Assembly: GCA_003820645.1 (NCBI GenBank)
Contig: RPOR01000014.1
Coordinates: 1-36,530 of the forward strand
Reading direction: 5' to 3'
Length of the DNA stretch: 36,530 bases
Source: Betaproteobacteria bacterium
GTDB taxonomy: Bacteria > Pseudomonadota > Gammaproteobacteria > Burkholderiales > SG8-41
Within the stretch, counting starts at the first letter, position 1, and each line of letters opens with the position of its first letter. Below are positions 12,042 to 29,114 of the stretch, one piece after another. Position numbers and translations under genes: made by a program. Below the pieces are notes generated by a model. The model made no database searches. It was not told the DNA's origin and worked only from the letters and a program-made list of their open reading frames with translations.

Positions 12042-13031
12042 TCAGATCTTGCCGTTGAACAGCGCCATCGCGGCGTTGCAGTAAATGTTTTCACGCTCCT
12101 GCGGGGTCAGCCCCGGCGTCATCTCGACGCGGTCCACCGGTGCCATCTCGCCCATGTCGAAGGGGGCATCGGTGCCAAGCACGATTTTCTCCGAACCGAT
12201 GACGTCGATCAGGTGGCGGATGGACTGCGGGCTATGGGTGAGCGCGTCGAACCAGAAACGCTTCAGCATCTGCATGGGATCCGATTTGGTGAATGCCGCG
12301 GTGTCCGGGCGCACCTTGTGGCCGTGCACGAAGCGGCCGATCTGGTACGGCAGGAAGCCACCGCCGTGCGCGAGCAGGATTTTCAGGTCTTTCAGTTCGT
12401 CCAGTGCGCCACTGAACATCAGTTTGCCGACCATGATGGTCGTATCCAGCGGATTGCCGATCAGATTCATCAGGTAATAACAGTCGAGACGCCCCGCCGC
12501 GCCCTGGGTGTTGGGATGCGCGAATATCATCACTTTCAGCTCTTCGATGCGTTTCAGCACCGGACGGAATTTGGGATCAGCCAGTTCTTCGTCACCGATC
12601 GCGGTGCCAAGCTCGACGCCTTTGAAATCGTATTCCCTGACGACGCGCTCGAGCTCGGCAATCGCCGCTTCCGGGTGCTGCATCGGCAGCGTGGCCATGC
12701 CGCGCAGCCGGTCGGGTTTCGCCGCAACCATCTGCGCAATACCGTCGTTGACCAGGCGTGCCGTGGTGATCGCGAGTTCGTCTTTCAAGTTGTAGAAAAA
12801 AGTCTGCGGTCCCGGCGAGATGAACGCGATGTCGATTTTCTTGCGGTCCATCGACTCCAGCTTGGCATCCGCATCATAGAACTCGGGCTCGAACGGAAAA
12901 CGCACCTTGCCACGAATGAACACCCGGTTGTGCCCCTCGCCTTCGATTCTGGTGTTGTAGACCGGATTTTCCTGCATCGCCTTGACGACGGTTTCAGGAA
13001 TCACGTGGTTATGGACGTCGATACGCTTCAT
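12042..13031 (-). CDS. amidohydrolase 2 family hydrolase/decarboxylase (ACMSD-like)
   Basis: A 329-residue TIM-barrel metal enzyme of the amidohydrolase_2 family. Metal ligands are visible as D5-V-H7-N-H9, H172 (FAHPNTQG), H222 (LAHGGGFLPYQIGR) and D288 (LGTDAPFD). The family includes 2-amino-3-carboxymuconate-semialdehyde decarboxylase, resorcylate decarboxylases and hydratases such as 4-oxalomesaconate hydratase; all act on carboxylated aromatic or ring-cleavage compounds. Which reaction applies is not decidable here. Its ATG overlaps the stop of the LysR gene (ATGA), so regulator and enzyme are translationally coupled. Confidence 0.88.
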   Translation of the reverse strand: MKRIDVHNHVIPETVVKAMQENPVYNTRIEGEGHNRVFIRGKVRFPFEPEFYDADAKLESMDRKKIDIAFISPGPQTFFYNLKDELAITTARLVNDGIAQMVAAKPDRLRGMATLPMQHPEAAIAELERVVREYDFKGVELGTAIGDEELADPKFRPVLKRIEELKVMIFAHPNTQGAAGRLDCYYLMNLIGNPLDTTIMVGKLMFSGALDELKDLKILLAHGGGFLPYQIGRFVHGHKVRPDTAAFTKSDPMQMLKRFWFDALTHSPQSIRHLIDVIGSEKIVLGTDAPFDMGEMAPVDRVEMTPGLTPQERENIYCNAAMALFNGKI

Positions 13032-13993
13032 GCTTGGTCTTTCTCCTGGTTACGCGGTTTTTTCTGGCGCGCCGCTGCTGTGGCGCCGCCGGGCAGGCTG
13101 AATACGCCATGCTCCGCAAGCGAGCGCACCTCTGCCGCCATGATCTGCGCCACTTCGTCGATTGCCGCGGAAGGCCGTTGTTCGGCCTGCTGGGCGAGCG
13201 TGAGTATACGATGGATGTTGGCATCGGCAATCGGCGAGGCCGTCAGCCGCTTCGTTGCAACGTCTTCGTGAAAAGTCGACACCGGCATCAGCGCCAGGCT
13301 GATGCCGCGGAGCACCAGCCGGCGGATGGCCTCGACGGCGTCGATCTCGGCTTCGACCTGGACACGTGCCTTGTGCCGCTGCAATTGCTCGTCGGCAATG
13401 ATGCGGATCGCCTCGGTACTGATCACCGGCGTGCGCGCCAGCTCCGCCGCCGTAAAGAAGCGCCTGCCGTTGCGTTGCGGCGCTTTGGCAAACACCACGA
13501 TCGGTTCGGAAATCAGCGGTGTGACCTTGATTACCCGGGAGTTCACCGGGTTGGTCAGCACGGCGACATCGGCACGCCCGGCGAGCAGCCAGTCGTAGAG
13601 CTGGTTGCTGAAACCCTCGACGACCTTCAGCCTGATCTGCGGGCACTGCCGGCGCATGCGCTCGACCACACCGGGCAGCAGCAACGCGCCGGTGGTCGGC
13701 GACACACCGAGGATGACCCGCCCCTGTGCAACCGCACCGCCGCTGCGCACCTCGTCCTGCGCCCGGCCCAGTTCGCGCAGGATACGCTGGCAGTGGTCGA
13801 GGAACTGGCGACCCGCCGTGGTCAGTCGCACCCCGCGCGGCAGTCGCACCAGCAGCGGCACCCCCAGATCCTGCTCCAGCACGTGGATGTGCCGCGACAG
13901 CGCGGGCTGCGCGACCCGCAGATGCTGGGCCGCACGGGTAATGCTGCCCAGTTCGGCGATCTGCACGAAATAGCGGATACCGCGCAGGTCCAT
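13028..13993 (-). CDS. LysR-family transcriptional regulator
   Basis: A 321-residue LysR protein. The N-terminal winged helix-turn-helix is clear (LRGIRYFVQIAELGSITRAA, then HLRVAQPALSRHIHVLEQDLG, then LLVRLPRGVRLTTAG) at about 3-60. The effector domain starts near 85 with GRVILGVSPTTG. ATG13993 is chosen because MDLRGIRYF is the normal family start; an upstream ATG at 14026 would add eleven unrelated residues. It is the first gene of the leftward operon and divergent from the catabolic series at 14280, the normal geometry for a LysR regulator controlling both sides. A matching operator lies in the gap. The last 20 residues form a basic, charged tail. Confidence 0.93.
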   Translation of the reverse strand: MDLRGIRYFVQIAELGSITRAAQHLRVAQPALSRHIHVLEQDLGVPLLVRLPRGVRLTTAGRQFLDHCQRILRELGRAQDEVRSGGAVAQGRVILGVSPTTGALLLPGVVERMRRQCPQIRLKVVEGFSNQLYDWLLAGRADVAVLTNPVNSRVIKVTPLISEPIVVFAKAPQRNGRRFFTAAELARTPVISTEAIRIIADEQLQRHKARVQVEAEIDAVEAIRRLVLRGISLALMPVSTFHEDVATKRLTASPIADANIHRILTLAQQAEQRPSAAIDEVAQIMAAEVRSLAEHGVFSLPGGATAAARQKKPRNQEKDQA

Positions 13994-14136
13994 GCTCAGG
14001 CGCCCGGCGCCGCACTGAGATAACAAAGCGGCATGTTTTTGCCTGCGGGAGTCGATCCCGCCGACCGCCGCCGGCGCCCAAATTTGCCGATGACGGTCCT
14101 GCTGCGGCGCAGAAATCGTGGTCTGATCATCGGCCT

Positions 14137-14165
14137 AGTTTAGCCATACCATTTTGGTATGTCAC
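14137..14165 (-). promoter_or_regulatory. predicted sigma70 promoter of the lysR operon
   Basis: Read on the minus strand, GTGACA (14165-14160, five of six with TTGACA) is followed by exactly 17 bases and then TAAACT (14142-14137, four of six with TATAAT). The expected start of the transcript is near 14130, leaving a leader of about 135 bases before the lysR ATG at 13993. Confidence 0.55.
14145..14161. promoter_or_regulatory. LysR-type operator, ATA-N9-TAT within the promoter spacer
   Basis: CATACC at 14145-14150 and GGTATG at 14156-14161 form a perfect six-base dyad around ATTTT. It fits the T-N11-A LysR box (T14147 and A14159) and the stricter ATA-N9-TAT form. It lies wholly between the -35 and -10 of the leftward promoter (touching the last base of the -35), so a bound regulator would block its own transcription. 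The distance to the rightward gene (GTG14280) is about 120 bases. Confidence 0.65.
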
Positions 14166-14279
14166 GGTGTACGATTCGGTATTGGTCGCTGCGCGCCGCC
14201 ATCGTTACCATGGCGCATCCACAACGCATCCGTTCCGCGGTCGCGCCAGGCGGGGCTACCTTCCAAGGAGATTCAGGCA

Positions 14280-15350
14280 GTGAAACAGATCAACGTTGGC
14301 ATCATCGGCACCGGCTGGTGCGGCGGCATCCGTGCCAATACCTGCGCCATCAACCCGGCGGTCAAGGACCTGCATATCGTCGAAACCAAACCCGAACGCC
14401 TCGCCGAAGTGGCCAAGTCGACGGGCGCCAAAACCGCGACGACTGATTACCGGAAACTGCTCGAAGTGAAGGATCTTGACGCAGTGATGATCTCCGCGAC
14501 CCCGGAATCGCTGCATCACCCGATGGCGCGTGACTGCCTCGAGGCCGGCCTGCATGTGTTCCTCGAAAAACCGATTGCGGTTGAATTGCACGAGGCCGAC
14601 GAGCTGATTGCCATCGCCCGCCGCAACAATGTCAAGTTCACCATCGGCTATTCGCAGCGTTTCAATCCCAAATACGCTTATGTCAAGAAGTGCCTCGACA
14701 ACGGCGCGATCGGCAAGCCGGTCAGTGCACTGGTCAGCCGCCACATCCAGAGGAGCCTCGGCGCCAAGATCACCGGCCGCAGCAAGCTCTCGCCGGCGGC
14801 GATGGAGGCCACCCATGACCTCGACTTCATCCTGTGGTGCCTGGCGCCGGCGAAACCGGTTCGCGTCTATTCGCAGGTGAATTACGGCGTGATGCGCGCC
14901 AACAGCGGCGCCGACGTGCCGGACACGCAATGGATCACGGTCACCATGGACAGCGGTATGTCGTTCGTCATCGGCGCCGGCTGGAGCCTGCCGCCCGGCT
15001 ACCCCAACGCCTGCTCGACCTGGATCGAGATGATCGGCACCGACGGCGCACTGATCTGCGACGACACCCACCGCGACGTCATCCTCAATACCATGAAAAG
15101 CGGCATGCAGCTGCCGATGTCGTCAATGCCGGGGGAACGCGTGGACCATGCGTTTGCCGGACCGATGCATGCCGAGACCGTGCATTTCATCGAGGCCGTG
15201 TGCTGCGACCGCCCGTTGCTGGTCACCGCCGAGCAGGCGCGCAACGTGATGGAGGTTTACATCGCCGCCGACCTCTCGGCTGAGCGCAACGAGCCGGTCC
15301 ATCTGCCGCTGCCCGAGTCGCGACCGCTGGCCGCGGTGGCCGGACGATAA
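14280..15350 (+). CDS. Gfo/Idh/MocA family oxidoreductase (first of tandem pair)
   Basis: A 356-residue NAD(P)-dependent oxidoreductase. The Rossmann motif GTGWCG is at 10-15 and the EKP motif at 96-98 (HVFLEKPIA). The C-terminal alpha/beta domain starts near 125 with YSQRFNPKY. Family members oxidise sugars, inositols, or, as in LigC, ring-cleavage semialdehydes. The start is GTG14280: AAGGAG at 14265-14270 stands nine bases before it and the Rossmann fold begins immediately; an ATG further upstream would add unrelated residues. It is the first gene of the rightward series controlled from the lysR gap. It shares a DDTHRD motif with the next gene. Confidence 0.88.
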   Translation: MKQINVGIIGTGWCGGIRANTCAINPAVKDLHIVETKPERLAEVAKSTGAKTATTDYRKLLEVKDLDAVMISATPESLHHPMARDCLEAGLHVFLEKPIAVELHEADELIAIARRNNVKFTIGYSQRFNPKYAYVKKCLDNGAIGKPVSALVSRHIQRSLGAKITGRSKLSPAAMEATHDLDFILWCLAPAKPVRVYSQVNYGVMRANSGADVPDTQWITVTMDSGMSFVIGAGWSLPPGYPNACSTWIEMIGTDGALICDDTHRDVILNTMKSGMQLPMSSMPGERVDHAFAGPMHAETVHFIEAVCCDRPLLVTAEQARNVMEVYIAADLSAERNEPVHLPLPESRPLAAVAGR

Positions 15351-15399: not shown

Positions 15400-16512
15400 A
15401 TGAAGAAAGACCTCAAGAAAATCGGCCTCGCCATCATCGGCGCCGGCCGCGTCGGCCTGATCCGCGCCGAACTTGCCGCGCGCCATCCCTCGGTGGGCTG
15501 GATCGGCATTGCCGAACTGAACCCCGAGCGCGGTGAAATCGTCCGCGAGAAATGCGGTGGCGATTTTGTCACCACCGATTTTCGCGAACTGCTGTCGCGC
15601 CCCGAAGTCAACGCGGTGTCGATCTGCACCGACGAGCACCTGCACGTCGACCCAGTGCTTTTTGCTGCCGAGCGCAAGCTGCCCATGCTGATCGAGAAGC
15701 CGCTCGCCACCGACCTTGGCGAATCGGCGCAAACGCTGGCCGCCATCGAAAAACACGGGGTCGACGCGGTAATCGGCTACACCCAGCGCTTCCGTCGCCG
15801 CTGGCTGGTCGCGAAGGAAAAAGTGCGCACCGGGTCGCTGGGCGACGTGACGATGGTGACTTCGCGCGCCTTCATGAACCGGCTGGTTGCGATCGACAAT
15901 TACAAGCGCAGCGACAATCGTGCCGAAGTGACGCCGATGGTGATTTCCGGCACCCATGCCCTCGATGTCGTGATGTGGCTGATGGAAGCGAAGAAGCCGG
16001 TCGAAGTGTATGCGCGTTCGGTAAACAAGGCGCTGGGACCCACCTGGCAGGGCGTGGACGGCACCGGCTACACGATCGTGTTTGATGACGGCGCGATCTA
16101 CCACGGCGTCATTTCGTGGGCGCTCCCTGAAGTCTGGCCGGGCGCGGTGTACAGCCTCGAAGTCGGCGCGGTGGGCACTGAAGGCGTGCTGACCATCGAC
16201 GACACCCATCGCGACATCGTGCTCGCCACCAACCTGATCCAGAGTGAAGGCTACGCACCCGACAAGCGGCGCCACGTCGACTTCCTGACCAGCTACCCGG
16301 TCGGCGACATGGCGCTCGGCGAACTGCGCGGCCCGATGCGCGAGGAAACCAATTCCTGGCTCAATCGGGTATCTTTGGGGGTGCCGACCCAACACGCAAC
16401 GGCCGCAGAAGGTCATAATCGCCTGATGCTGACCAAGGCCATCGACCTGTCGGCAAAACTGAAACGCCCGGTAGCATTACCCATTGCACCAGGTGATGAA
16501 AAAATACAATAA
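15400..16512 (+). CDS. Gfo/Idh/MocA family oxidoreductase (second of tandem pair)
   Basis: A 370-residue relative of the upstream gene. GAGRVG lies at 14-19, EKP at 99-101 (MLIEKPLAT), and the domain change at GYTQRFRRRW near 128. The region VGTEGVLTIDDTHRDIVLAT matches GTDGALICDDTHRDVILNT in the first copy, so the two are paralogues, but the rest has diverged strongly. The substrate is unknown; a heteromeric pair or successive steps are both possible. The intergenic distance of 49 bases suggests one transcript. Confidence 0.88.
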   Translation: MKKDLKKIGLAIIGAGRVGLIRAELAARHPSVGWIGIAELNPERGEIVREKCGGDFVTTDFRELLSRPEVNAVSICTDEHLHVDPVLFAAERKLPMLIEKPLATDLGESAQTLAAIEKHGVDAVIGYTQRFRRRWLVAKEKVRTGSLGDVTMVTSRAFMNRLVAIDNYKRSDNRAEVTPMVISGTHALDVVMWLMEAKKPVEVYARSVNKALGPTWQGVDGTGYTIVFDDGAIYHGVISWALPEVWPGAVYSLEVGAVGTEGVLTIDDTHRDIVLATNLIQSEGYAPDKRRHVDFLTSYPVGDMALGELRGPMREETNSWLNRVSLGVPTQHATAAEGHNRLMLTKAIDLSAKLKRPVALPIAPGDEKIQ

Positions 16513-16551: not shown

Positions 16552-17529
16552 ATGCTGCACTTCAAACGCACCATTCTTGCCGCTTCGCTGTCGATGTTCG
16601 CATGCGGCGCCGCTCTCAGCGCGGACACCTACCCCAATCGGCCGGTGCGCATGGTCGTGCCGTTTGCGCCGGGCGGCGCTTCGGACTTCGTCGGCCGCAT
16701 CATCCAGCCGGCGATGGCCGACCTGCTGAAACAGACCGTGGTCGTTGATAACCGCCCGGGTGCGGCCGGCAACATCGGCGTCGAAACCGCCGCGCGCGCG
16801 ACGCCCGACGGCTACAACTTCCTGCTCGGCAACGTCGGCACGATGGCGATCAATCCGGTGTACTACACCAAATTCAAATACAAACCGCTGAATGACCTGA
16901 TCCCGATCACGCAGGTGGTCGATGTGCCCGGCAGCCTGGTGTCCCACCCTTCGGTGCCGGCGAAAACGGTCAAGGAACTGGTGGCTTACATGAAAGCCAA
17001 TCCCGGCAAGACGAACTACGGCGCCGCCGCACCGAGCAGTGCCAACACGCTGGAAGCGCTGATGTTCCTGAACATGTCGGGCACCAAGGCGACGATGATC
17101 CCGTACAAGGGCGGCGCGGGCCCGGCCACCATCGGCCTGCTCGGCAACGAAGTGCAGTGGCTGATGGCGACGTTCAGCTCGACGGTCAATTTCGCCAAAC
17201 AGGGCCGGCTACGGATGCTTGGTATCATCGCCCCCGAGCGCAGCCCGGCAATGCCCGAGGCGCCGACGATGCGGGAACAGGGTTTCGACATGGTGGTGGG
17301 TTCGTGGCAGGGGCTGTTTGTGCCCAAGGGAACGCCGGCCAATGTCGTCGACACGCTGTACAAGGTCGGCCAGGCCACGATGAAGAACCCGGAAGTCGTC
17401 AAGAAGCTCGGCGACAGCGGTGTCGCGGTCGTGCCCAGCAAGAGCCCGGCGGATTTCAGAGCCTTCGTCAAAAGCGAGACCGACCGTTTCGCCAAGGCGA
17501 TTCGCGACAACAACATCCAGACCGACTGA
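16552..17529 (+). CDS. Bug/TctC-family solute-binding protein
   Basis: A 325-residue periplasmic binding protein with a signal peptide ending near residue 23-24 (FACGAALSA before DTYPNRPV). The classic Bug N-terminus YPNRPVRMVVPFAPGG is present, followed by VDNRPGAAGNIGVETAA and ending with a short polar tail. AAGGAG precedes the ATG. It is the closest to the standard Bug consensus of the two in this window. Like the other, it has no membrane partner nearby, and it sits between oxidoreductases and the M24 hydrolase, so it probably captures the substrate of this pathway or a related carboxylate. Confidence 0.93.
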   Translation: MLHFKRTILAASLSMFACGAALSADTYPNRPVRMVVPFAPGGASDFVGRIIQPAMADLLKQTVVVDNRPGAAGNIGVETAARATPDGYNFLLGNVGTMAINPVYYTKFKYKPLNDLIPITQVVDVPGSLVSHPSVPAKTVKELVAYMKANPGKTNYGAAAPSSANTLEALMFLNMSGTKATMIPYKGGAGPATIGLLGNEVQWLMATFSSTVNFAKQGRLRMLGIIAPERSPAMPEAPTMREQGFDMVVGSWQGLFVPKGTPANVVDTLYKVGQATMKNPEVVKKLGDSGVAVVPSKSPADFRAFVKSETDRFAKAIRDNNIQTD

Positions 17530-17645: not shown

Positions 17646-18923
17646 ATGGCAAACGTAGGGATGGTGGGACTGGACTGGCAGGAGCGGATCAACTGGGATC
17701 GTCTGCGCAAATACCGGCTGGAACGTGCGCGCGAGCGCATGAAGGCGCACGGCCTCGGCGCGATGCTGCTGATGTACGACGAGAACGTCCGCTACGTCAC
17801 CAGCACCCTCACCCCCGGCTGGAACCGCCTGAAGCCGGGCCTGCGCTACGCACTGCTGTGCGGCGACGACGCCCCCGTGCTGTTCGAGCAGGGTGACATC
17901 GGCGTGCACATCGCGAAACACTCGCCGTGGATACCGAAGGAGAACATCAAGTATTCCTACGCCTGGATCAAGGGCGCGGCCGGCCCCGCTTCGCTGGCGC
18001 AGGTGACCAAATTCACCAACGGCATCAAGAAAGAAATGAAGAAGAGCGGCGTCGAAGGCCAGAAGCTCGGCGTCGACTTCATCGACATCAACATGATCCA
18101 GATCTTCAAGGATTCGAAGATCGACTGGACCGACGGCATGACGCCGATGATGGAAGCCCGCGCCGTCAAGAACGAGGACGAGCACGAATGCATGCGCCAG
18201 GTCGGCGCCATCGGCGACGCCGCACACTGGGAATTCATGAAATTCCTGAAGCCGGGACTCACCGAGAACCAGCTCACCGCGCACATCATGGAATTCCTCT
18301 ACAACATCCCCGGCATGGAAGACGTGGAAGACGTGATCGTCTCCTCCGGCCTCAACACCTGGCCGAACTGGCGGAACTTCTCCGACCGCATCATCAAGCC
18401 GGGCGACATGGTGTTCATGGATCTCGCCGCGCTGACCTGGAACGGCTACAAGTCCTGCTACTACCGCACCTACATGGTCGGCCGCGAGCCGAACCAGGAA
18501 CAGAAGGATTACTACGCCACCGCGCTGAAGTGGCTGTACGACTCGATCAAGGCGGTGAAAGTCGGTGTCACCACGCGCGATATCGCCTCGAAGTGGCCGT
18601 CGGCGAAGGATACCTGGGGCTATGAGGAAGAAGATCAGGCCGCAGCCAACCTGTGGGGGCACGGACTGGGTCTGGCGCAGTACGACCAGCCGGTCATCTC
18701 GCGCATCTGGTCGCTTGACCATCCGATCGAGATCAAGGAAGGCATGGTCTTCGCACTGGAAACCCAGCATGGCAAAGTCCACCAGTGGGGCGTGCGCATC
18801 GAAGAGATGCTGATCGTCCACAAGGACAGTGTCGAGATCGTCTCCAACTTCCCGGTCGAGCAAATCACCGTAGTGGACCCGATGCCGGGTTACTGCAATT
18901 TCGGCAAGCTGCCCGGAAGGTAA
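17646..18923 (+). CDS. M24-fold (pita-bread) hydrolase with altered metal site
   Basis: A 425-residue protein with a creatinase N-terminal domain (about 20-180) and an M24 catalytic domain. Of the five metal ligands of M24 peptidases, four can be placed: D259 (VFMDLAAL), H339 (GHGLGLAQYDQP), E372 (VFALETQHG) and E386 (GVRIEEMLIV). The second aspartate of the SDxTRT motif is replaced: the sequence reads YKSCYYRTY, with C271 in its place, and the usual HExP is YDQP. A normal two-metal aminopeptidase is therefore doubtful. M24 relatives with other chemistry include creatinase and the DMSP lyase DddP. In this cluster a non-peptidase role is likelier; this is inference. Confidence 0.85.
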   Translation: MANVGMVGLDWQERINWDRLRKYRLERARERMKAHGLGAMLLMYDENVRYVTSTLTPGWNRLKPGLRYALLCGDDAPVLFEQGDIGVHIAKHSPWIPKENIKYSYAWIKGAAGPASLAQVTKFTNGIKKEMKKSGVEGQKLGVDFIDINMIQIFKDSKIDWTDGMTPMMEARAVKNEDEHECMRQVGAIGDAAHWEFMKFLKPGLTENQLTAHIMEFLYNIPGMEDVEDVIVSSGLNTWPNWRNFSDRIIKPGDMVFMDLAALTWNGYKSCYYRTYMVGREPNQEQKDYYATALKWLYDSIKAVKVGVTTRDIASKWPSAKDTWGYEEEDQAAANLWGHGLGLAQYDQPVISRIWSLDHPIEIKEGMVFALETQHGKVHQWGVRIEEMLIVHKDSVEIVSNFPVEQITVVDPMPGYCNFGKLPGR

Positions 18924-19010: not shown

Positions 19011-19037
19011 ACGCATGACATGTTTCAAGGTCCACCC

Positions 19038-20081
19038 ATGGCCTCTGCAATGAGAACCGCGGCGCTGCAGGCGCCACGGCAGTTCGAAATCATCTCGCGT
19101 CCGCGGCCGGTCGCCGGGCCGGGTGAGGTCCTGGTACGGACTGCCGCCACGGCGGTCTGCCATACCGATCTCGGCATTTATACCGGGGAACATCCGGGGC
19201 TGCGCTATCCTGTCGTTCTCGGTCACGAATCCACCGGCACCATCGACACCATCGGCGACGGCGTCACCGGTTTCGCACCGGGTCAACCGGTCATCATCAA
19301 CCCGATCATCTCCTGCGGGCATTGCGATTCATGCCGGCGCAATGCGCAGCACCTGTGCCGCAACGCCGGGCTGTTCGGTCGTGAAGTCGACGGGTCGCTG
19401 AGCGAGTTCGTCTGTCTGCCCGTGCGCTACGTGCATGCCCTCCCCCCCCAACTGCCGCTGGCGGACGCGACGCTGATCGAAACCCTGGCCACCGTGCGCC
19501 ACGCGCAGCAGCGCCTGGGCATTGTCGCGGGCGAATCGGTGGTGGTACTCGGCATGGGCACCACCGGCCTGCTGCATGCGCGCCTTGCCGCACTGGCGGG
19601 GGCCAGGCCCGTGATCGTGGTCTCGCGCAGCAAATGGAAACTCGACATGGCGATGCGCATGGGAGCGCACCATGCGCTCGACACCGGCGCCGAACAGTCA
19701 GTCGCCGAAGTGCTGCGGCTGACCGGCGGCGACGGTGCAGATGTGGTCATCGACACGGTCGGTGGCGACGCCACCCTCAGGGCCGGCATCGACATGCTGC
19801 GTCCCGGCGGACGTTTTTCGCCGTACGCGGTGAGCCACGCCTGCTGCCCCACCTTCAGCACCTTCCCGCTGTACTACAAGGAAATCAGCATCATCGGCTC
19901 GCGCGCACTGGCACCCTCCGACATGGAGCCGTCGATCACGCTGGTGGCTTCCGGCAGCATCGACGTCGCCGGTTTCGTATCGGCGACCTACCCGCTTTCG
20001 CGCACCGCGGAAGCATTTGAAGAATACGAACGCAACCCCGGCCGCGTGCTGCGCATCGTCATCGACGGCCGGGAAAGTTGA
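19038..20081 (+). CDS. zinc-dependent medium-chain alcohol dehydrogenase
   Basis: A 347-residue MDR-family dehydrogenase. Catalytic zinc ligands are C41, H63 and E64 (VCHTDLG, LGHEST). The structural zinc lobe is complete with C93, C96, C99 and C107. The nucleotide fold begins near VVVLGMGTTG. It should interconvert a primary or secondary alcohol and an aldehyde or ketone with NAD(P). ATG19038 is preferred to ATG19020 because AAGG at 19027-19030 lies seven bases before it. It is followed after ten bases by the phosphotransferase gene, so the two are probably cotranscribed. Confidence 0.9.
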   Translation: MASAMRTAALQAPRQFEIISRPRPVAGPGEVLVRTAATAVCHTDLGIYTGEHPGLRYPVVLGHESTGTIDTIGDGVTGFAPGQPVIINPIISCGHCDSCRRNAQHLCRNAGLFGREVDGSLSEFVCLPVRYVHALPPQLPLADATLIETLATVRHAQQRLGIVAGESVVVLGMGTTGLLHARLAALAGARPVIVVSRSKWKLDMAMRMGAHHALDTGAEQSVAEVLRLTGGDGADVVIDTVGGDATLRAGIDMLRPGGRFSPYAVSHACCPTFSTFPLYYKEISIIGSRALAPSDMEPSITLVASGSIDVAGFVSATYPLSRTAEAFEEYERNPGRVLRIVIDGRES

Positions 20082-20091
20082 GAGATTAATC

Positions 20092-21414
20092 ATGGAATCA
20101 CTGATCATCCCCATTACCGATCCGGTTGCGAAAGACGCCGGACGTTTCGGCCCCAAGGGGGCCAATCTGGCCACACTGACCCAGGCCGGCCTGCCCACAC
20201 CCGGCGGCTTCTGTGTCGACGCCGCCGCCTACCGCTACCAGATCCGCGCGCTCGGACTGGAAGAATCGGCGCGCGGCGCTTTCAGCACCGACAGCAGCCC
20301 GCAGGCGCGCCGCTACGCACTGAACATGAAGCTCGGCCTGATGGACAAACCCATCGCACCGGAAATCGAAGTCCAGTTGCTCGCCGCGTGGCGTCATCTG
20401 GCCGCGACCTCGGGCACGCCGATCGTGGTACGTTCCTCGGCGCTGGTCGAGGATCGTTACGGCTCGAGTTTTGCCGGGCAGTTCGAAAGCTTCCTCGATC
20501 TCGACAACGAAACGGATTTTCTGATTGCCGTACGCTCGTGCTGGGCAGCGCTGTGGATGACCCGCGCGCTACGCTACATGGCAACCCACGACATCGATCC
20601 GGCGGAAACGGCGATGGGCCTGATCATCCAGCCGCTGGTCAAGGCGCGCGCCGCCGGCGGTGCGCTGAGTCAGACGGCGGGCGGCGACATGCTGATCAAC
20701 GCGACGCCCGGACTCGGTGCCGCCATCGCGCAGGGCGAAGTGACTCCGGACCGCTATGTGCTCGATCGCAATGCCGTGCTCAAGGAGACCGTGGCGGCAC
20801 CGACGCAGTATCACGCGCTGAGTTGCGCTCACCGTCCGGCGCTCGCCCCGCGCATGCGCAAAGCGCCCGATCCCTGCCTGACACCGGTGCAGGCCGTCGA
20901 ACTCGGCCAGTTGGTGCGCCGTATCGAAGACCTGATGGGCATGGCCGTCGAAATCGAGTGGGCGATGGACGACGCCGGCTTCAGAATGCTGCAGTCGCGG
21001 CCGCTGCACCTCGAGCCCGAACACGAATATGTCGCCGACGACGTCTGGCTACGGCAGCCGCATTTGCGCGGCCAGCCCGCGGGCGCCGGGTGGACGTCCG
21101 GCCTCGCCTGCGTGATCAACTGCGAATGCGAACTGTCGCGGGTGGCACCCGGCGCGATCCTGGTGACCAAGATGGCCGGTCCTGCGCTGTCGCAGATCCT
21201 GCCGCGGGTGTCCGGCGTCGTCGCCGAACTGGGTGGCAGCACTTCGCACCTTGCCTCGCTCGCCCGCGAGCGAGGCATCCCGATGGTGCTCGGCGCGCAC
21301 GACGCAACGCAGCGCATCCCCGAAGGCTCGATGGTATCGGTGGACGGCGTATCCGGCATGGTGCGCTGGATGCCGGCCGACCTGAATTCACTGACCATGA
21401 TGAGGATGACATGA
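20092..21414 (+). CDS. two-domain PEP-synthase-like phosphotransferase (ATP-grasp plus phosphohistidine domain)
   Basis: A 440-residue protein with the PEP synthase/PPDK ATP-binding domain (about 15-310: GPKGANLATLTQAGLPTPGGF, VVRSSALVEDRYGSSFAGQ, then IEWAMDDAGF and LQSRPLHL) and a mobile phosphohistidine domain (about 350-425). The phosphohistidine is H386 in ELGGSTSHLASLARERGIP. The C-terminal PEP/pyruvate-binding barrel is absent, and the rifampin-binding insert of rifampin phosphotransferases is also absent. This resembles the split phenylphosphate synthase of phenol degraders, where ATP phosphorylates the histidine and then an organic hydroxyl. The acceptor here is unknown. The stop overlaps the ATG of the next gene (ATGA), linking it tightly to the selenoprotein candidate. 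Confidence 0.85.
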   Translation: MESLIIPITDPVAKDAGRFGPKGANLATLTQAGLPTPGGFCVDAAAYRYQIRALGLEESARGAFSTDSSPQARRYALNMKLGLMDKPIAPEIEVQLLAAWRHLAATSGTPIVVRSSALVEDRYGSSFAGQFESFLDLDNETDFLIAVRSCWAALWMTRALRYMATHDIDPAETAMGLIIQPLVKARAAGGALSQTAGGDMLINATPGLGAAIAQGEVTPDRYVLDRNAVLKETVAAPTQYHALSCAHRPALAPRMRKAPDPCLTPVQAVELGQLVRRIEDLMGMAVEIEWAMDDAGFRMLQSRPLHLEPEHEYVADDVWLRQPHLRGQPAGAGWTSGLACVINCECELSRVAPGAILVTKMAGPALSQILPRVSGVVAELGGSTSHLASLARERGIPMVLGAHDATQRIPEGSMVSVDGVSGMVRWMPADLNSLTMMRMT

Positions 21415-22043
21415 CACAGCGCATACGCGGCATCACCGATGACGAAGCCGTCGGTCCGGCCAAGGAGCTGTTCGACGCTTCCAACCGGATGCTCGGCCGC
21501 ACCGCCAACCTGATGCGCATTCTGTCACACAGCCCACTCGTGGCACGCTGGATTCTGCCCTTCATCGCCGCGGTGCGCCAGCCCAACGCCGGCGCGGTGT
21601 CCGCGGTGCGGCTGCGCAACCTCGCGGTGCTGAAGACCTCGACCGTCAACGACTGCCATTACTGAACGGAACACAACTACGTGCTTGGTCAAGCACTGCG
21701 ACTGAAAGACGAAGAGTTCGACGCGCTGCAAGGCGACTATCAGGCGAGCCCGCTGTTCAACGCGAAGGAAAAAGCGGTCATCGCGTGGTCGGAAGCGATG
21801 ACGCTGAATACCGCAAAGCGCGATAACAAGGTCTGGGACGCACTGCGCCGCGAATTCAATGACGCTGAAATCGTCGAAATCTCGCTGGCCTGTGCGATGT
21901 TCAACATGATCAATCGGCTCAATGATTCGTTCCGCACCGAACTGGAAAGCGCCGAATACAACCAGCGTCAGCGTGGCGCCGTCGGCATCACCCGCAAGAC
22001 GCTGGAAGACTATGCCTGCGTGATCTGCAATCAATCCAGTTGA
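21411..22043 (+). CDS. selenocysteine-containing carboxymuconolactone decarboxylase/AhpD-like protein (TGA at 21663-21665)
   Basis: Read through one TGA, the frame encodes 210 residues. The N-terminal half (FDASNRMLGRTANLMRIL, then LRNLAVLKTSTVNDCHY) is a normal AhpD/CMD-like start. The TGA is codon 85, and the motif becomes C82-H-Y-U85-T-E-H88-N, where the family has C-x-x-C-x-x-H. The C-terminal half (KDEEFDALQGD, FNAKEKAVIAWSEAMT, VEISLACAMFNMINRLNDSF) completes the fold in the same frame. AhpD-like proteins with CxxU have been described in marine metagenomes. The product would be a thiol/selenol redox enzyme, a peroxidase or reductant. A SECIS-like hairpin follows. SelA/SelB/SelC are not in the window. 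Alternatives are a nonsense mutation or a sequencing error at a TGC or TGT codon. Confidence 0.78.
21681..21696 (+). promoter_or_regulatory. putative bacterial SECIS stem-loop
   Basis: GTGCTT at 21681-21686 pairs perfectly with AAGCAC at 21691-21696 around the four-base loop GGTC at 21687-21690. The loop begins 21 bases after the TGA (21663-21665). Bacterial SECIS elements are short stems with a small apical loop that has G in its first two positions, about 16-37 bases after the UGA; this one meets each point. The E. coli fdhF element also exposes GGUC at its tip, the part recognised by SelB. Confidence 0.7.
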
Positions 22044-22055
22044 CGCTCGCCCGGC

Positions 22056-23045
22056 ATGTCAAATCGTCCCCGCATCCACATCACCCAGCCCGTCGCGCAA
22101 AGCGCCATTGATCGGTTGCAGGCGGTCGCCGACGTGCGCTGGAACCCGGACCCGCTGCACATCATGACCCGGGCAGAACTGGTCGCTGCCGCCCGCGACT
22201 GCGACATCCTGTTCTGCCTGCTCCACGACCAGGTCGACGCCGCGGTGATCAATGCCAACCCGCGGCTGAAGGCTGTCGCGTCGATGACCATCACGCCGGC
22301 CGACATCGATATCCCGGCGGCGACCGCACGCAGGCTCCCGGTCACGGTGATCCCCGCGCTGCTGCTCGACGATGCGACGGCCGATCTCGCTTGGGCGCTG
22401 CTGCTGTCTCTGGTACGGCGCGTCACCGAGGGCGACCGATTGCTGCGTTCCGGCATCTACCCGGGTTCGCAATCCTGCTACATGGAGGGCGGCGGCATTA
22501 CCGGCAAGACGTTGGGTATCGTCGGCATGGGCGGCGTAGGTCGCGCTGCTGCCGCGCGGGCGCATGCCTTCAAGCTGCGCGTGATCTATCACGATCCCCA
22601 GCGGCTGCCCCCTGCAGACGAACAACAGTTGCGCATCACCTGGGTGCCATTCGAGGAATTGCTGGCCGCAGCGGATTTCGTATCCATACATGCCAAACTG
22701 ACCCCGCAAACGCGCCACCTGTTCGACGACGCGGCGTTTGCGCGCATGAAGCCGACCGCGTACCTGATCAACACCGCGCGCGGCCCGATCGTCGATGAAG
22801 CGGCACTGGTGCGCGCGCTGCGCGACAAACGCATCGCCGGGGCCGGCCTCGACGTCTACGAAAACGAGCCGCAGCCCCACCCCGAACTGCTGAATATGCA
22901 GAATGTGGTGATGACGCCGCACACTGGCAGCGCGATTACCGAACTGCGCGCGGCGATGGCCAATGTCGTCGTCGACAATATCCTCGCGCTGCTCGCCGGC
23001 CGCAAGCCGCCGAACTGCTGGAATGCCGAGATCTACGACAAATAG
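22056..23045 (+). CDS. D-2-hydroxyacid dehydrogenase (glyoxylate/hydroxypyruvate reductase type)
   Basis: A 329-residue NAD(P)-dependent 2-hydroxyacid dehydrogenase. The nucleotide motif is GMGGVG at 157-162 and the catalytic triad is R242 (NTARGPIVDE), E271 (DVYENEP) and H289 (TPHTGSA). It should reduce a 2-keto acid such as glyoxylate or hydroxypyruvate, or oxidise the matching D-hydroxyacid. It begins 12 bases after the AhpD-like gene. The unusual N-terminal domain carries little identity to the second dehydrogenase downstream, so they are old paralogues, not a recent duplication. Confidence 0.9.
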   Translation: MSNRPRIHITQPVAQSAIDRLQAVADVRWNPDPLHIMTRAELVAAARDCDILFCLLHDQVDAAVINANPRLKAVASMTITPADIDIPAATARRLPVTVIPALLLDDATADLAWALLLSLVRRVTEGDRLLRSGIYPGSQSCYMEGGGITGKTLGIVGMGGVGRAAAARAHAFKLRVIYHDPQRLPPADEQQLRITWVPFEELLAAADFVSIHAKLTPQTRHLFDDAAFARMKPTAYLINTARGPIVDEAALVRALRDKRIAGAGLDVYENEPQPHPELLNMQNVVMTPHTGSAITELRAAMANVVVDNILALLAGRKPPNCWNAEIYDK

Positions 23046-23096: not shown

Positions 23097-24086
23097 ATGG
23101 CGGGAAAAACCAAAGTCGTACTGACCGATTACGTCTGGGAGTCGGTGGACATGGAACGCAGGATCCTCGGTGACGGCGTCAACCTGGTGCCCCTGCAGAC
23201 CAAGAAGCCCGAGGAGTTCATCGCCGAAGCCGCGGACTGCGTTGCGCTGCTCAACACCTACGCCGGCCCGATCACTGCTGACGTGATGGCCAAAATGCCC
23301 CAGTGCAAAATCATCGCCCGCTATGGCATCGGCGTGGACACCATCGACCTCGAGGCCGCGACCAAGGCCGGCATCATCGTCACCAACAACCCGACCTACT
23401 GCATCGACGAAGTCGCCGAGCACACGATGGCGCTGCTGCTCTCCGCGGCGCGCAAGATCACCTTCTATGACCGCCAGGTGCGCGCCGGCAAATGGGCGGT
23501 GCCCCCGGGCAAGCCGATCCAGCGCGTCTCCGGCAGCACCATCGGGCTCGTCGGCTACGGCAACATCGCCCGCCAGGTCGCGGTGCGTGCCGCGGCCTTC
23601 GGCATGAAAGTGCTGTTCGCCGACCCGTTCATCAAGCAGGGGCAGTTCAACACGCCGGGTGACAAGGTCGAACTCGAGCAGCTGCTCGCCGATTCCGATT
23701 TCGTTTCACTGCATCCGCCGCTGACCCCGCAAACCCGCCAGCTGATGAATGACGCGGCTTTCGCCAAGATGAAAAAGAACGCGGTGCTGGTCAACTGCTC
23801 GCGCGGCCCGGTCATCGACACCGACGCGCTGGTGCGCGCGCTCGATGCCGGCAAAATCGCCGGCTGCGCCCTCGACACGGTGGATCCGGAACCCCTTCCC
23901 GATCCGCACCCGCTGCGCGGGCGCGAGAACGTCATCATCAATCCCCATGCCGCGTGGTACAGTGAGCAGGCCATGAAAGGCCTGCAGGCCGGAGCGCCTG
24001 GTGAAGTGCAGCGCGTGCTGTCCGGGCAATGGCCGATCAATGTCGTCAATCCCGCCGTGCGCGGCAACAACCGCGCGGGCCTCTGA
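23097..24086 (+). CDS. D-2-hydroxyacid dehydrogenase, C-terminal-binding-protein (CtBP) type
   Basis: A 329-residue dehydrogenase of the phosphoglycerate dehydrogenase superfamily. The N-terminal marker ARYGIGVDTIDLEAAT is at about 74-90, the nucleotide motif GYGNIA at 153-158, and the triad is R236 (NCSRGPVID), E265 (VDPEPLP) and H284 (NPHAAWYSEQ). The PHxAWYSEQ end is characteristic of the CtBP-like subgroup. Substrate specificity is open. The 51 bases before it are very AT-rich in contrast to the surroundings, then ACCGGAGC gives a ribosome site, so a second promoter may lie there, although a proper -35/-10 pair with normal spacing is not seen. Confidence 0.9.
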   Translation: MAGKTKVVLTDYVWESVDMERRILGDGVNLVPLQTKKPEEFIAEAADCVALLNTYAGPITADVMAKMPQCKIIARYGIGVDTIDLEAATKAGIIVTNNPTYCIDEVAEHTMALLLSAARKITFYDRQVRAGKWAVPPGKPIQRVSGSTIGLVGYGNIARQVAVRAAAFGMKVLFADPFIKQGQFNTPGDKVELEQLLADSDFVSLHPPLTPQTRQLMNDAAFAKMKKNAVLVNCSRGPVIDTDALVRALDAGKIAGCALDTVDPEPLPDPHPLRGRENVIINPHAAWYSEQAMKGLQAGAPGEVQRVLSGQWPINVVNPAVRGNNRAGL

Positions 24087-25145: not shown

Positions 25146-26150
25146 TCAGACTGCTATGGCTTTGCGCTTTGACCGGATTGCTGCGAGGATTTTTTCCGCG
25201 GTTGCCGGCAGTGAACTGATGCGTACGCCCACGGCATCATGTATGGCATTGAGTATGGCTGCTGCAGTCGGCACCGATGTGGGCTCGCCGACGCCTTTGG
25301 CGCCAAAGGGCCCGGTAGGGTCGTAGTTTTCAACAAGATCAACTTCGATCTCCGGCATGTCCAGGCTGGTGGGCATGATGTAGTTGGTGAGGTTGGGATT
25401 GATCTGGCGGCCTTCAGCGTCAAAAAGAATCTCCTCCTGCAGTGCAAATCCCAGCCCCATCGAAATACCACCCTCTACTTGCCCCTCCACCAGCATCGGG
25501 TTGATCGGCGTGCCGCAATCGTGCGCCGCGACAATGCGCAACACGTCAACCTCTCCGGTTTCGTCGTCGACATCGACTTCCGCGATCTGCGTGGCGTAGA
25601 CATACGTATTGAACGGCTTGCCCTGCCCGGTCTCCGGATCCATGGGCACCGTCGGTGGATTCCAGGTCGCACTGCCGATCGCCGGCTGCCCCTTCACCGC
25701 CTGCGCCTGCAGCGCGACGTCACTTATCGGCAAGTGGCGTTGCGGAAATGATTGCACCTGTATTTTACGGTCACGCGCCTCGAGTTGCTCCGGGCGCACG
25801 CCCAGCATGGGGGCGGCCACCTCGAACAGGATGGCGCGCGCCATCTCGGCAGCCAGCCTGACTGCATTGCCCGTCACATAGGTGGTGCGGCTGGCGATGG
25901 CCCCCGTATCCATGGGAGTGACGTCGGTATCGCCGGATACCACGTGGACGTCATCCGCCGCAATACCCAGGGCTTCCGCAGCGATCTGTCCCAAGACGGT
26001 GAGCGCGCCCTGTCCGGTTTCCACCGTGCCGGTGAGCAGCGTTGCCGTGCCGTCCTCATTGACCTTGACGGTCGCCGCACTGGGATTGGCGGCAACCGTG
26101 AAGCCGATCGGGTACCACATACAGGCGATACCGCGTCCGCGCCTTTTCAT
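25146..26150 (-). CDS. molybdopterin-binding large subunit of xanthine dehydrogenase-family hydroxylase, C-terminal part
   Basis: A 334-residue C-terminal half of a molybdenum hydroxylase large subunit. It contains TGTVETGQGALTVLGQIAAE, DVHVVSGDTDVTPMDTGA, AHDCGTPINPMLVEGQ and the catalytic KGVGEPTSVPTAAA with the conserved Glu that acts as base at the molybdenum centre. ATG26150 overlaps the stop of the preceding gene (ATGA). The normal protein is a single chain of about 770-800 residues; together the two pieces add up to that length with no gap in the homology. It may be a natural split or one indel at the joint. The substrate is likely an N-heterocycle or aromatic acid, not shown by sequence. 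Confidence 0.85.
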   Translation of the reverse strand: MKRRGRGIACMWYPIGFTVAANPSAATVKVNEDGTATLLTGTVETGQGALTVLGQIAAEALGIAADDVHVVSGDTDVTPMDTGAIASRTTYVTGNAVRLAAEMARAILFEVAAPMLGVRPEQLEARDRKIQVQSFPQRHLPISDVALQAQAVKGQPAIGSATWNPPTVPMDPETGQGKPFNTYVYATQIAEVDVDDETGEVDVLRIVAAHDCGTPINPMLVEGQVEGGISMGLGFALQEEILFDAEGRQINPNLTNYIMPTSLDMPEIEVDLVENYDPTGPFGAKGVGEPTSVPTAAAILNAIHDAVGVRISSLPATAEKILAAIRSKRKAIAV

Positions 26151-27541
26151 TGACCGCCCTCCGTCCAGCCCATGCGCCGTGCCGCCTTGAGCAGGGATTC
26201 CCTGACCACTACGCTGTGCAGCACCTGCCCGGTCGGACTGGATGAGCCGTTCTCGAATGCATTGCGCAAACGGATTTCCAGCGGGTCGATGCCCAGTGCG
26301 TGGGCGATTTCGTCCATCTGCGATTCGTAGGCAAAACAAACCTGTGGCGCGCCGAAACCGCGCATCGCCCCCGTCATGGTCTTGTTCGTATAGACGACCA
26401 GGGCCTCGACGTGAAAGTGCTCTATGCTGTAGGGCCCGCTCGAGAGGATGGCCGCCTTGCCCAGCGTGGTCTCGCTCCAGGAACAGTAAGCGCCGCCATC
26501 CAGCACCAGGCGCACCTTGCGCGCCAGGATGCGTCCATTGCGATCGACCCCGGTTTTGTAGTCCATGATGAAAGGATGACGGGTCGTCGAGGCGGTGAAT
26601 TCCTCCGTTCGGGTGTACACCCCCTTGACCGGACGTCCTGCTTTCTTCGCCAGCAGGGCCAGAACGGGCTCCTGCGTAATCTCATTCTTGCCGCCGAAAT
26701 TGCCGCCGACCACGCTGCCCACCAGGCGGATGCGATTGACCGGCATGCGGAGTGTCCGCGCAAGGTCGGTGCGACCGAGTGTGATCCGGCCAAGGCTCGA
26801 GTAAACCGTGACCCGGCCGTTCGCATCCCAGAGGGCGATGGCGGCATGGGTTTCGATCGGCACATGCTCCACCATCTGGGTACGATACTGCCTCTCGAAC
26901 AGATGATCACTGTCGGCAAATCCCTGCTCGACGTTGCCCTTGCAGATGACCTTTCGCGCGTAGACATTGCCCGCAGGCGGATGCACTTTCGGCGCGTCAT
27001 CCTTCAGCGCCTCCAGCGGATCGAACACAGCGGGCAGCCGTTCATAGTCGACCCTGATTTTTTCAAGCGCCTGCGCCGCAATCTGCTCGCTCACGGCAGC
27101 CACTGCCGCGACACCGTCCCCCGCATGAAACACGCGTTCATCCGCAAGCACCGGCTGATCCTGCAACGACGGACCGAACGAATTGACGGGAATGTCCCTG
27201 CCGGTAATCACGGCCATCACGCCCGGCATGGCCTCGGCCTCGCGCGTGTCGATGCTGCGGATCCTGGCCGAAGCCACGCCAGCGCGCTTGATCCGGGCGT
27301 GCAGCATGCCTGGGAAAACCATGTCATCAATGTAGGGGGTCTGACCGAGTCCATGCAGACGCGCATCCAGTCGGGTCGCACGTTGCCCCACGGCCGGTGT
27401 CTGCTGCCTGACCTCCGGCACCAGCAGCCCCACCGGAAAAACGGCCGGCAGCGTTTCGGAATGCACCTGCAGCCGACGGGCACTGGTAAAGGCAGGGCCC
27501 GCAACCCGCGGCTTCTCATCCACAATGGTTTTCCTGTTCAT
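26147..27541 (-). CDS. molybdopterin-binding large subunit of xanthine dehydrogenase-family hydroxylase, N-terminal part
   Basis: A 464-residue N-terminal half. The a/b hammerhead domain is visible from about 60 (LDARLHGLGQTPYIDDMVFPG, then HARIKRAGVASARIRSID), followed by the first molybdopterin-binding domain with SVVGGNFGGKNEITQEP and AMRGFGAPQVCFAYE. It ends at GWTEGGQ, exactly where the second gene takes over with MKRRGRGIACMW, which in intact relatives follows within a few residues. Its ATG overlaps the stop of the iron-sulfur subunit gene (ATGA). The first 45 residues look unlike the family and may be a linker. Confidence 0.85.
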   Translation of the reverse strand: MNRKTIVDEKPRVAGPAFTSARRLQVHSETLPAVFPVGLLVPEVRQQTPAVGQRATRLDARLHGLGQTPYIDDMVFPGMLHARIKRAGVASARIRSIDTREAEAMPGVMAVITGRDIPVNSFGPSLQDQPVLADERVFHAGDGVAAVAAVSEQIAAQALEKIRVDYERLPAVFDPLEALKDDAPKVHPPAGNVYARKVICKGNVEQGFADSDHLFERQYRTQMVEHVPIETHAAIALWDANGRVTVYSSLGRITLGRTDLARTLRMPVNRIRLVGSVVGGNFGGKNEITQEPVLALLAKKAGRPVKGVYTRTEEFTASTTRHPFIMDYKTGVDRNGRILARKVRLVLDGGAYCSWSETTLGKAAILSSGPYSIEHFHVEALVVYTNKTMTGAMRGFGAPQVCFAYESQMDEIAHALGIDPLEIRLRNAFENGSSSPTGQVLHSVVVRESLLKAARRMGWTEGGQ

Positions 27542-28041
27542 GGTCCGGCTTTCGACTTTACCTCGGCGTTTTCAGAATCACTGCGCATCGCGCGCGCGGC
27601 GTGCAGTACCGCTTCGATCATTTTCGTATAGCCGGTGCAGCGACAAAGATTTCCTGCAAGTCCGTCACGAACTTCCTGCCGGCTGGGATCCGGGTTCGCA
27701 TCCAGCAGCGCCTTGGCCGACAGGATGACACCGGGTCCGCAGAAGCCGCATTGCAGCGACGCCTGTTCCTCGAACGCCTGCTGTAGCGGATGCAGCCGCT
27801 CGCGGGTGGCAAGCCCTTCTATGGTCAGTATTGAGCAGGCATCTGCCTGTGCAGCCAGCATCAGGCAGGCGTTGACGGACCGGCCGTCGACGATCACCGT
27901 ACATGCTCCGCAATCGCCGACATCACAGCCAAGCTTGGCACCGGTAAGGCCCAGCTGGTTGCGCAGCAACCCCAGCAGCGTGGTCTCCGGCAGTACCGAT
28001 AGCGCATGGCGCCTGCCATTGACCGTCAGGCAGATGTCCAT
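27538..28041 (-). CDS. 2Fe-2S subunit of xanthine dehydrogenase-family hydroxylase
   Basis: A 167-residue CoxS/XdhC-like iron-sulfur protein carrying two 2Fe-2S clusters. The plant-ferredoxin type site is C39, C44, C47 and C59, and the C-terminal helical site is C98, C101, C133 and C135 (QCGFCGPG, NLCRCTGY). It carries electrons from the molybdenum site to the FAD subunit. The start ATG28041 overlaps the FAD gene stop as TGATG. An upstream in-frame ATG would run into the FAD gene and adds residues unlike the family. Confidence 0.95.
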   Translation of the reverse strand: MDICLTVNGRRHALSVLPETTLLGLLRNQLGLTGAKLGCDVGDCGACTVIVDGRSVNACLMLAAQADACSILTIEGLATRERLHPLQQAFEEQASLQCGFCGPGVILSAKALLDANPDPSRQEVRDGLAGNLCRCTGYTKMIEAVLHAARAMRSDSENAEVKSKAGP

Positions 28042-28931: not shown

Positions 28932-29114
28932 GCCCCCCCCAATCGACATCGAATGATGGATTCTCAGCAGCATCGGTCACGGGTTTTTTGATATAGCGCA
29001 AGAAGTCCGCAAAAAAGACTCCACGAAACCGTCCAGTCACCCTATCCTTCGTTCGCGCACCTAACAAGAATCATCCCGAAACACAAGATGCTGCGGCAGC
29101 GCCGGCAGTACAAC

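Follow-up and report, generated by a model that had tools for sequence, protein, structure and literature searches.

Within the window, the whole 36,530-nucleotide stretch analysed here, which is contig C13 of a 3.25-Mb assembly of 91.7% completeness, positions 21411-22043 of the forward strand appear from sequence comparison to be a real selenoprotein gene, in which an in-frame TGA at the redox centre of an AhpD-like protein would be read as selenocysteine (Sec). We put the probability of this reading at about 0.96, a figure that applies to the Sec assignment alone; the whole explanation, in which one selenoprotein gene provides a Sec85/Cys82 redox pair that is recycled through a dithiol in the protein tail and reduces peroxide-type by-products, we hold with good, if lower, confidence. 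With the TGA read as a residue, the frame encodes 210 amino acids with a single internal TGA (U85) and a terminal TGA; our translation reproduced what the initial annotation had described, a frame open save for the one TGA at 21663-21665 and the motif C82-H-Y-U85-T-E-H88. It had also expected standard gene calling to split the gene, and the open reading frame listing does stop at the TGA, with a GTG at 21681 opening a frame of 120 codons. The features of the gene are as follows:

21411..22043, forward strand: putative CMD/AhpD-like selenoprotein gene, 210 amino acids including U85 (frame and orthologue comparison)
21654..21656, forward strand: codon of Cys82, partner cysteine of the CxxU motif (C in 47/47 Sec and 34/34 Cys forms)
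21663..21665, forward strand: probable Sec-encoding TGA, codon 85, in CHYU (TGA in 47/47 orthologues, Cys in the 34 next loci)
21681..21696, forward strand: putative bSECIS hairpin, stem 21681-21686/21691-21696, apical loop GGUC 21687-21690 (comparative: conservation, covariation)
22017..22028, forward strand: C-terminal CxxC (CVIC), codons 203-206, in predicted helix 195-208 (Sec/Cys comparison)

Scanning the GTDB contig collection gave 117 relatives, and the best 80, which were kept, bear directly on the residue at position 85. The orthologous loci L088-L133, two of them titled Rokubacteria, encode CxYU with TGA at the same codon in 46/46 cases and together with the window make up the 47 Sec forms discussed below; the other 34 loci, L134-L167, mainly from alphaproteobacteria and SAR116, encode CxYC, the codon at 85 being TGC in 28 and TGT in 5 of 33, with TGC in L148 also. 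The initial annotation had proposed checking which residue homologues carry at this site: among the window and these best 80 of 117 relatives, 47 have TGA there and 34 have Cys, with no third alternative. A homologue at E<=1e-20 was found in 37 of 100 related genomes, and a TGA lies inside all 35 near-full-length orthologues of at least 67% identity in that set (the window counted, two from one genome); largely the same genomes stand behind the 100-genome set and the GTDB contig loci, so the two do not count as independent. Among named relatives, Burkholderiales/Betaproteobacteria MAGs come nearest, and the record titles “Bordetella parapertussis” and “Chitinophaga pinensis” among the MAGs look misassigned and were given no weight. 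Nothing but the window's own copy was found at E<=1e-30 in 369 genomes sampled across the class.

For nine chosen pairs dN/dS is 0.06-0.29 over codons 1-84 and 0.08-0.24 from codon 98 to the end, low values on either flank of the TGA which argue for purifying selection on both sides. A read error at the TGA was considered and rejected, since the same TGA recurs in many separately assembled genomes. One locus, L118 (the same gene as L031, in genome G025), has an extra in-frame TAG at codon 129 and was retained in the counts, and genome G023 holds an internally deleted copy from which residues 92-153 are absent.

The strongest single evidence for Sec, absent from the initial annotation, is the covarying hairpin predicted to act as the SECIS element. 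The UGA is followed by 15 nt and then by GUGCUU-GGUC-AAGCAC, which places the apical loop 21 nt past the UGA; the hairpin sequence is identical in 44/47 Sec forms and all six pairs form in 46/47, the variants being one mismatch in L128, one G-U pair in L101, and UA replaced by CG, on both sides, in L129. Among the 34 Cys forms just one has six pairs (G-U counted), which we attribute to chance, and L148 reaches four. Codons 91-96 are nearly frozen, with entropies of 0-0.40 bit; the 56 other conserved codons within codons 1-105 average 1.15 bit, and one of them (His88) lies below 0.3. CTT and GCA make up 6% of Leu and 10% of Ala codons elsewhere in these genes, and when the peptide of this stretch was recoded at random with synonymous codons, six pairs arose in 1.6% of 20,000 trials.

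This bacterial family contains four AhpD-like groups (A-D) with an in-frame TGA, and covariation was assessed in 25 chosen sequences (17 of the 47 in group A, all 8 read in group C). Much of the signal is the difference between these two groups. In this set 96% of cells pair (0/500 shuffles) and 10 cells are altered on both sides (0/500); three of the six pairs are altered on both sides (11/500 shuffles as high), and seven further pair types occur (9/500). The covariation score is 0.262 (0/500 shuffles), and registers slid by 1-3 score 0.016-0.143. A scan of both strands of the window for an in-frame TGA flanked by open frames and followed by a hairpin of this kind gave one occurrence. The bSECIS model asks for G at the first two loop positions, a loop of 3-9 nt, a stem of 4-16 bp and a distance of 16-37 nt from the UGA, with an energy limit of -7.5 kcal/mol (PMC13188914); the window hairpin lies within it for loop (GGUC), stem (6 bp) and spacing (21 nt), but at -6.8 kcal/mol falls short of the energy limit and is no better than shuffles. 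An energy fold over 66 nt gave z +1.16 and a structure different from the hairpin, and Rfam gave no match at gathering scores over the whole window. Since the hairpin's energy is unremarkable, the case for a SECIS is a comparative one, from conservation and covariation.

Groups B and C share 34-38% identity with the window protein and have CxYU. The eight group C hairpins read have a GGUC loop in the same register, with the loop-closing pair changed from UA to AU in two, and their outer two stem pairs form in just 5 and 6 of the 8; in the nine read from group B the hairpin is UCGCCU-GGUC/GGUU-GGGCGA, 11 nt past the UGA, with the loop CGUU in one of the nine. Group C includes fused two-domain proteins in which the second domain lacks Cys/Sec at the motif, as full reading of five of them showed (L055, L058, L060, L061, L062). 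Group D is represented in the window's own genome at positions 19693-20304 of contig C3; the 48 matches listed in 61 genomes comprise 37 with one internal TGA, 10 with none and one with TAA, and of 20 loci 19 have CxYU and a downstream hairpin, with CxYC in L187. A scan for Sec motifs in two stretches of contig C3 returned 15 frames, two of them recognisable as plausible. The presence of four such groups in one bacterial family is new so far as our searches went; in the literature (open-licence papers; titles and abstract openings among the matches listed) no selenoproteins of Burkholderiales MAGs were found.

The genes that Sec insertion needs had been named in the initial annotation as a check, and the host assembly has them: selA (571 bits), selB (419 bits), selD (425 bits), the last with an in-frame TGA of its own, and tRNA-Sec (75.9 bits; ARAGORN anticodon tca) for selC. 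Among the genomes numbered 0-36, a tRNA-Sec of at least 75 bits is present in all 24 that have a homologue at E<=1e-20, and one of at least 74 bits is also present in 11 of the 13 that have none, so this within-family tally is consistent with the Sec reading and does not discriminate. Outside the family of the window, 17 genomes (4 Sec, 13 Cys) were tested for selA and tRNA-Sec. Three of the four Sec-form genomes (L128, L131, L133) have a tRNA-Sec of 69.7-74.5 bits, with selA above the cut-off for L128, a contig-edge fragment for L131 and an unconvincing match for L133; the genome of L129 has neither selA nor a tRNA-Sec above 42 bits, and may be an incomplete assembly. One of the 13 Cys-form genomes, L149, has both selA (577 bits) and tRNA-Sec (64.5 bits) at full strength, and in the other 12 no selA above the cut-off was found and tRNA-Sec scores reach at most 52.2 bits. 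Several of these 12 exceed the tRNA-Sec gathering score of 47; because 49.7-bit second-best matches accompany a full tRNA-Sec in related genomes, this suggests that scores near 50 bits may come from other tRNAs.

The same observations bear on other meanings of the TGA. Were it a true stop, leaving a pseudogene or two proteins of 84 and 120 residues, the end of the listed frame at the TGA, the GTG-initiated frame beyond it and the unremarkable hairpin energy would all be accommodated; but the TGA stands in 47/47 orthologues with low dN/dS on both sides, the Cys homologues run continuously through the site, the codons are frozen, the hairpin covaries and a full sel system is present, and we regard a true stop as very improbable. 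Decoding as Trp or another residue, through suppression or a variant code, is scarcely credible: nothing was found in its favour, TGA ends both the upstream dikinase frame (21412-21414) and this gene (22041-22043), homologues among the best 80 of 117 relatives have Cys and never Trp at the site, tRNA-Sec and selA/B/D are present, and a variant code would make the SECIS hairpin needless. The selenoprotein reading of the initial annotation is thus borne out by the TGA/Cys pairing, the sel genes with tRNA-Sec, and the covarying hairpin.

The protein is predicted to have an AhpD-like/CMD fold. Its AlphaFold model (pLDDT 93.5, from the 39-row alignment A2) compares to AhpD-like structures (rows 1-13) with Z scores of 16-19, the nearest being the debrominase Bmp8 (Z 19.3) and AhpD of D. 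radiodurans (Z 18.7), which is a tie. Family profiles are weaker: Pfam CMD matches at 17 bits (E 0.0059), under its gathering score of 23 bits; TIGR01926 (peroxidase-related enzyme) at 62.3 bits, under the curated cut-off of 81.8; NF041238 at 39.6 against 175 bits and NF053654 at 63.3 against 310 bits; the protein lies under the NCBIfam cut-offs of all families matched. The AhpD proton relay, as outlined in one account, consists of Glu(-12), Tyr or His(+2) and His(+4) (PMC3141380), and all 47 Sec forms have Asn70 and Asn89 at the Glu and His sites; the window protein has Tyr84 at +2 and His88 at +3. The initial assignment as AhpD/CMD-like can accordingly be kept for the predicted fold and not for AhpD in the strict sense. 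The strict conservation of the Cys/Sec pair, together with the fold, makes a selenol/thiol redox role likely, with selenol/thiol reductase the most likely activity.

A second cysteine motif distinguishes the Sec branch: among the window and the best 80 of 117 relatives, a CxxC past residue 190 is present in 47/47 Sec forms versus 0/34 Cys forms, one of which (L134) keeps a lone tail Cys. C203 and C206 lie on a helix, residues 195-208, in the AlphaFold model, and the AhpD-like structures of rows 1-13 stop at model residue 188 or before, so that the structural comparison does not reach the tail. In a quick tree the Cys clade is nested within the group A Sec forms, with SH-aLRT 98 at the fork that places two Rokubacteria Sec forms outside; rooting relied on distant paralogues, and long branches were flagged by the tree program. 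The topology suggests a single change from Sec to Cys accompanied by loss of the tail. Four independent pairs in the tree differ in Sec and one of the four also differs in the tail; with only one transition of this kind, the association of tail and Sec is no independent proof and supports no statistical claim, and shared descent accounts for it as well as function does. The Sec proteins of groups B and C lack a tail CxxC, from which it follows that Sec does not require the tail; none was found in the group D tails inspected. We give about even odds to the tail CxxC being a built-in resolving dithiol. In the literature (open-licence papers; titles and abstract openings among the matches listed) no C-terminal CxxC was found in AhpD-like selenoproteins.

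The gene lies in a putative catabolic operon, of which the following members were assigned by Pfam:

13028..14026, reverse strand: LysR-type regulator, divergent from the putative operon
14154..15350, forward strand: Gfo/Idh/MocA oxidoreductase, first gene of the putative operon
15400..16512, forward strand: Gfo/Idh/MocA oxidoreductase
16552..17529, forward strand: TctC solute receptor
17646..18923, forward strand: M24 (creatinase/prolidase-like) protein
19020..20081, forward strand: zinc-type alcohol dehydrogenase
20017..21414, forward strand: two-domain phosphotransferase, PPDK_N plus PEP-utilizers (PPDK-like dikinase), its stop overlapping the CMD start (ATGA)
22056..23045, forward strand: D-2-hydroxyacid dehydrogenase
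23097..24086, forward strand: D-2-hydroxyacid dehydrogenase

The phosphotransferase that the initial annotation saw directly coupled to the gene is real, with both domains and the ATGA overlap, but is not the general setting: a dikinase is found in 13 of the 46 orthologous Sec loci, directly upstream in 12 and apart in L116, and the ATGA overlap is shared by the window and four of those 12 relatives, with a gap of 3-175 nt in the other eight. The dikinase context is one of several. Eleven other Sec loci have a flavin monooxygenase and a flavin reductase directly upstream (PF08028 scanned in L090 only, the others assigned by 84-94% identity), and L109 has diverged copies (65-71%); 21 of the 46, some of them on short contigs, have neither dikinase nor flavin monooxygenase by the searches run. 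A luciferase-like monooxygenase is encoded farther upstream on the same strand in 9 of the 11 flavin-monooxygenase loci, and a relative of it (56-58% identity) immediately precedes the Cys form in 9/34 Cys loci (L159-L167; SAR116 and kin); being found beside both forms, this gene indicates that the coupling crosses the Sec/Cys divide. So far as our searches went, it is also new that such genes recur beside the selenoprotein gene in catabolic operons, whether they encode flavin monooxygenases, luciferase-like monooxygenases or a PPDK-like dikinase.

The sequences themselves show the TGA and its conservation, the Sec/Cys pair, the hairpin, the sel genes, the tail and the gene context, and the fold is predicted. 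A mechanism can be proposed from these comparisons, in which it is inferred which way electrons flow, what the tail does and which substrate is used. SelB would recognise the GGUC-loop hairpin 21 nt past the UGA, and Sec would be inserted at position 85; the Sec85 selenolate would attack an oxidising or electrophilic substrate made by the pathway, and Cys82 would resolve the attacked Sec85 to give a selenenylsulfide. C203/C206 on the added helix would probably reduce the Cys82-Sec85 bond and pass the oxidation to a cellular reductant. The most likely role would be to reduce a (hydro)peroxide or comparable by-product within catabolic operons, several of which encode flavin-dependent monooxygenases. 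Taken jointly, these elements would describe a lineage-specific selenoenzyme whose selenenylsulfide is recycled by a dithiol on its own added C-terminal helix, which serves flavin-monooxygenase or dikinase catabolic operons, and in which the exchange of Sec for Cys (towards Alphaproteobacteria) also lost the dithiol, so that Sec chemistry and built-in reductant are evolutionarily tied; in this full form we offer it tentatively, as somewhat doubtful.

The protein might instead be an adaptor with no action on small molecules, delivering electrons to a partner protein in the way that AhpD supplies AhpC. AhpD of M. tuberculosis is described as such an adaptor (PMC3141380), and the tail CxxC could serve as an electron shuttle, but no AhpC or peroxiredoxin was recognised among the scanned neighbours, and we consider this unlikely. 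A reductive dehalogenase-like action, in which Sec85 attacks the halogen of an organohalide and thiols regenerate the enzyme in the manner of Bmp8, seems quite unlikely. Sec attack on halogen has been proposed for deiodinases. Among solved structures, Bmp8 is the best match both by profile (98 bits) and by structure, and it shares with the window protein His(+3) and the absence of Glu(-12); structurally it nonetheless ties with AhpD of D. radiodurans, its identity is 18%, and no halogenation or dehalogenation Pfam family was recognised among the chosen neighbour genes, though a flavin monooxygenase could dehalogenate.

Because ordinary gene calling cuts the gene at the TGA, a selenoenzyme group of uncultured Burkholderiales can readily escape notice. 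For Betaproteobacteria, a survey of 2006 gives, in the portion consulted, one selenoprotein family, with fdhA the sole one there (PMC1794560), compared with the several AhpD-like selenoproteins that this lineage appears to have. A Sec form with a tail dithiol and a Cys form without one offer a natural experiment on the reasons for retaining Sec, and selenium becomes linked to particular catabolic operons in which the substrate may be discoverable.

Among known systems, the Cys orthologues L134-L167 share 47-64% identity with the window protein over most of the chain; unlike it they have Cys85 and no tail CxxC, and the six-pair hairpin in 1/34. M. tuberculosis AhpD and P. aeruginosa PA0269 are like it in their all-helical fold and C-x-x-C/U motif, with Tyr(+2) as in PA0269, and unlike it in the relay Glu(-12) and His(+4), as that relay is outlined (PMC3141380), which are replaced by Asn70 and Asn89. 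Bmp8 (PDB 6ohi/6ohj) resembles it as the best solved match, in having His three positions past the second Cys and in lacking Glu at -12, but has Cys for Sec and aligns to model residues 1-185 only, leaving the C-terminal CxxC helix without an aligned counterpart. The initial annotation was right that CxxU AhpD-like selenoproteins exist: AhpD-like and CMD-like examples are on record in the sections available of four papers (PMC1088965, PMC2398784, PMC9312934, PMC13188914). The AhpD-like (COG2128) and CMD-like (PF02627) selenoproteins of the Sargasso Sea and GOS data share with the window protein the fold family, CxxU, a downstream predicted bSECIS and Cys homologues, and their family lists, in the available text, make no mention of a C-terminal CxxC, a Burkholderiales group or such operons (PMC1088965, PMC2398784). 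The second, C-terminal CxxC of the Sec branch is new so far as our searches went; the kind, an AhpD-like CxxU selenoprotein, is already known, and the window gene is a variant of it.

Two AhpD-like paralogues, one of the Sec and one of the Cys form, lie about 1.7 kb apart on contig C3 of the genome from which the window comes:

L004:1438-2049, minus strand, Sec (CHYU) AhpD-like paralogue
L003:1438-2031, minus strand, Cys (CRYC) AhpD-like paralogue

The CHYU paralogue has a hairpin of its own, and its TGA-bearing relatives are found in many related genomes. At five further loci the AhpD-like protein is a fusion of two domains, the first of which carries CxYU together with a GGUC hairpin, while the motif of the second has neither Cys nor Sec:

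L055:713-2107, minus strand, fused AhpD-like two-domain protein
L058:653-2026, minus strand, fused AhpD-like two-domain protein
L060:1711-3087, fused AhpD-like two-domain protein
L061:655-2181, minus strand, fused AhpD-like two-domain protein
L062:755-2158, fused AhpD-like two-domain protein

Two orthologues of the window Sec gene are irregular. The one in genome G023 (C63:25562-25999) lacks residues 92-153 as one stretch, a gap which removes most of the SECIS hairpin and leaves the TGA in place. The Sec form L118 has an in-frame TAG at codon 129, the gene being conserved elsewhere; this codon reflects either an error or decay.

As for the selenium machinery, selD of the window's own genome (C14:8334-9263, locus L045) contains an in-frame TGA, and SelD is therefore probably itself a selenoprotein. 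Genome G479 has selA and tRNA-Sec despite the Cys form of its AhpD-like gene (L149).

In the window, the putative catabolic operon is adjoined by a stretch on the opposite strand (25146-28973, minus) encoding xanthine/CO dehydrogenase-type molybdoenzyme domains (MoCoBD, FAD-binding).

Within locus L068 (C3:14000-26000), adjoining the group D AhpD-like Sec gene, is a minus-strand frame, at about position 5183 of the locus, with an in-frame TGA inside a UPNC motif. The 243-residue frame 3' of this TGA matched no Pfam family; the UPNC frame resembles selenoproteins of the GrdB/PrdB type.
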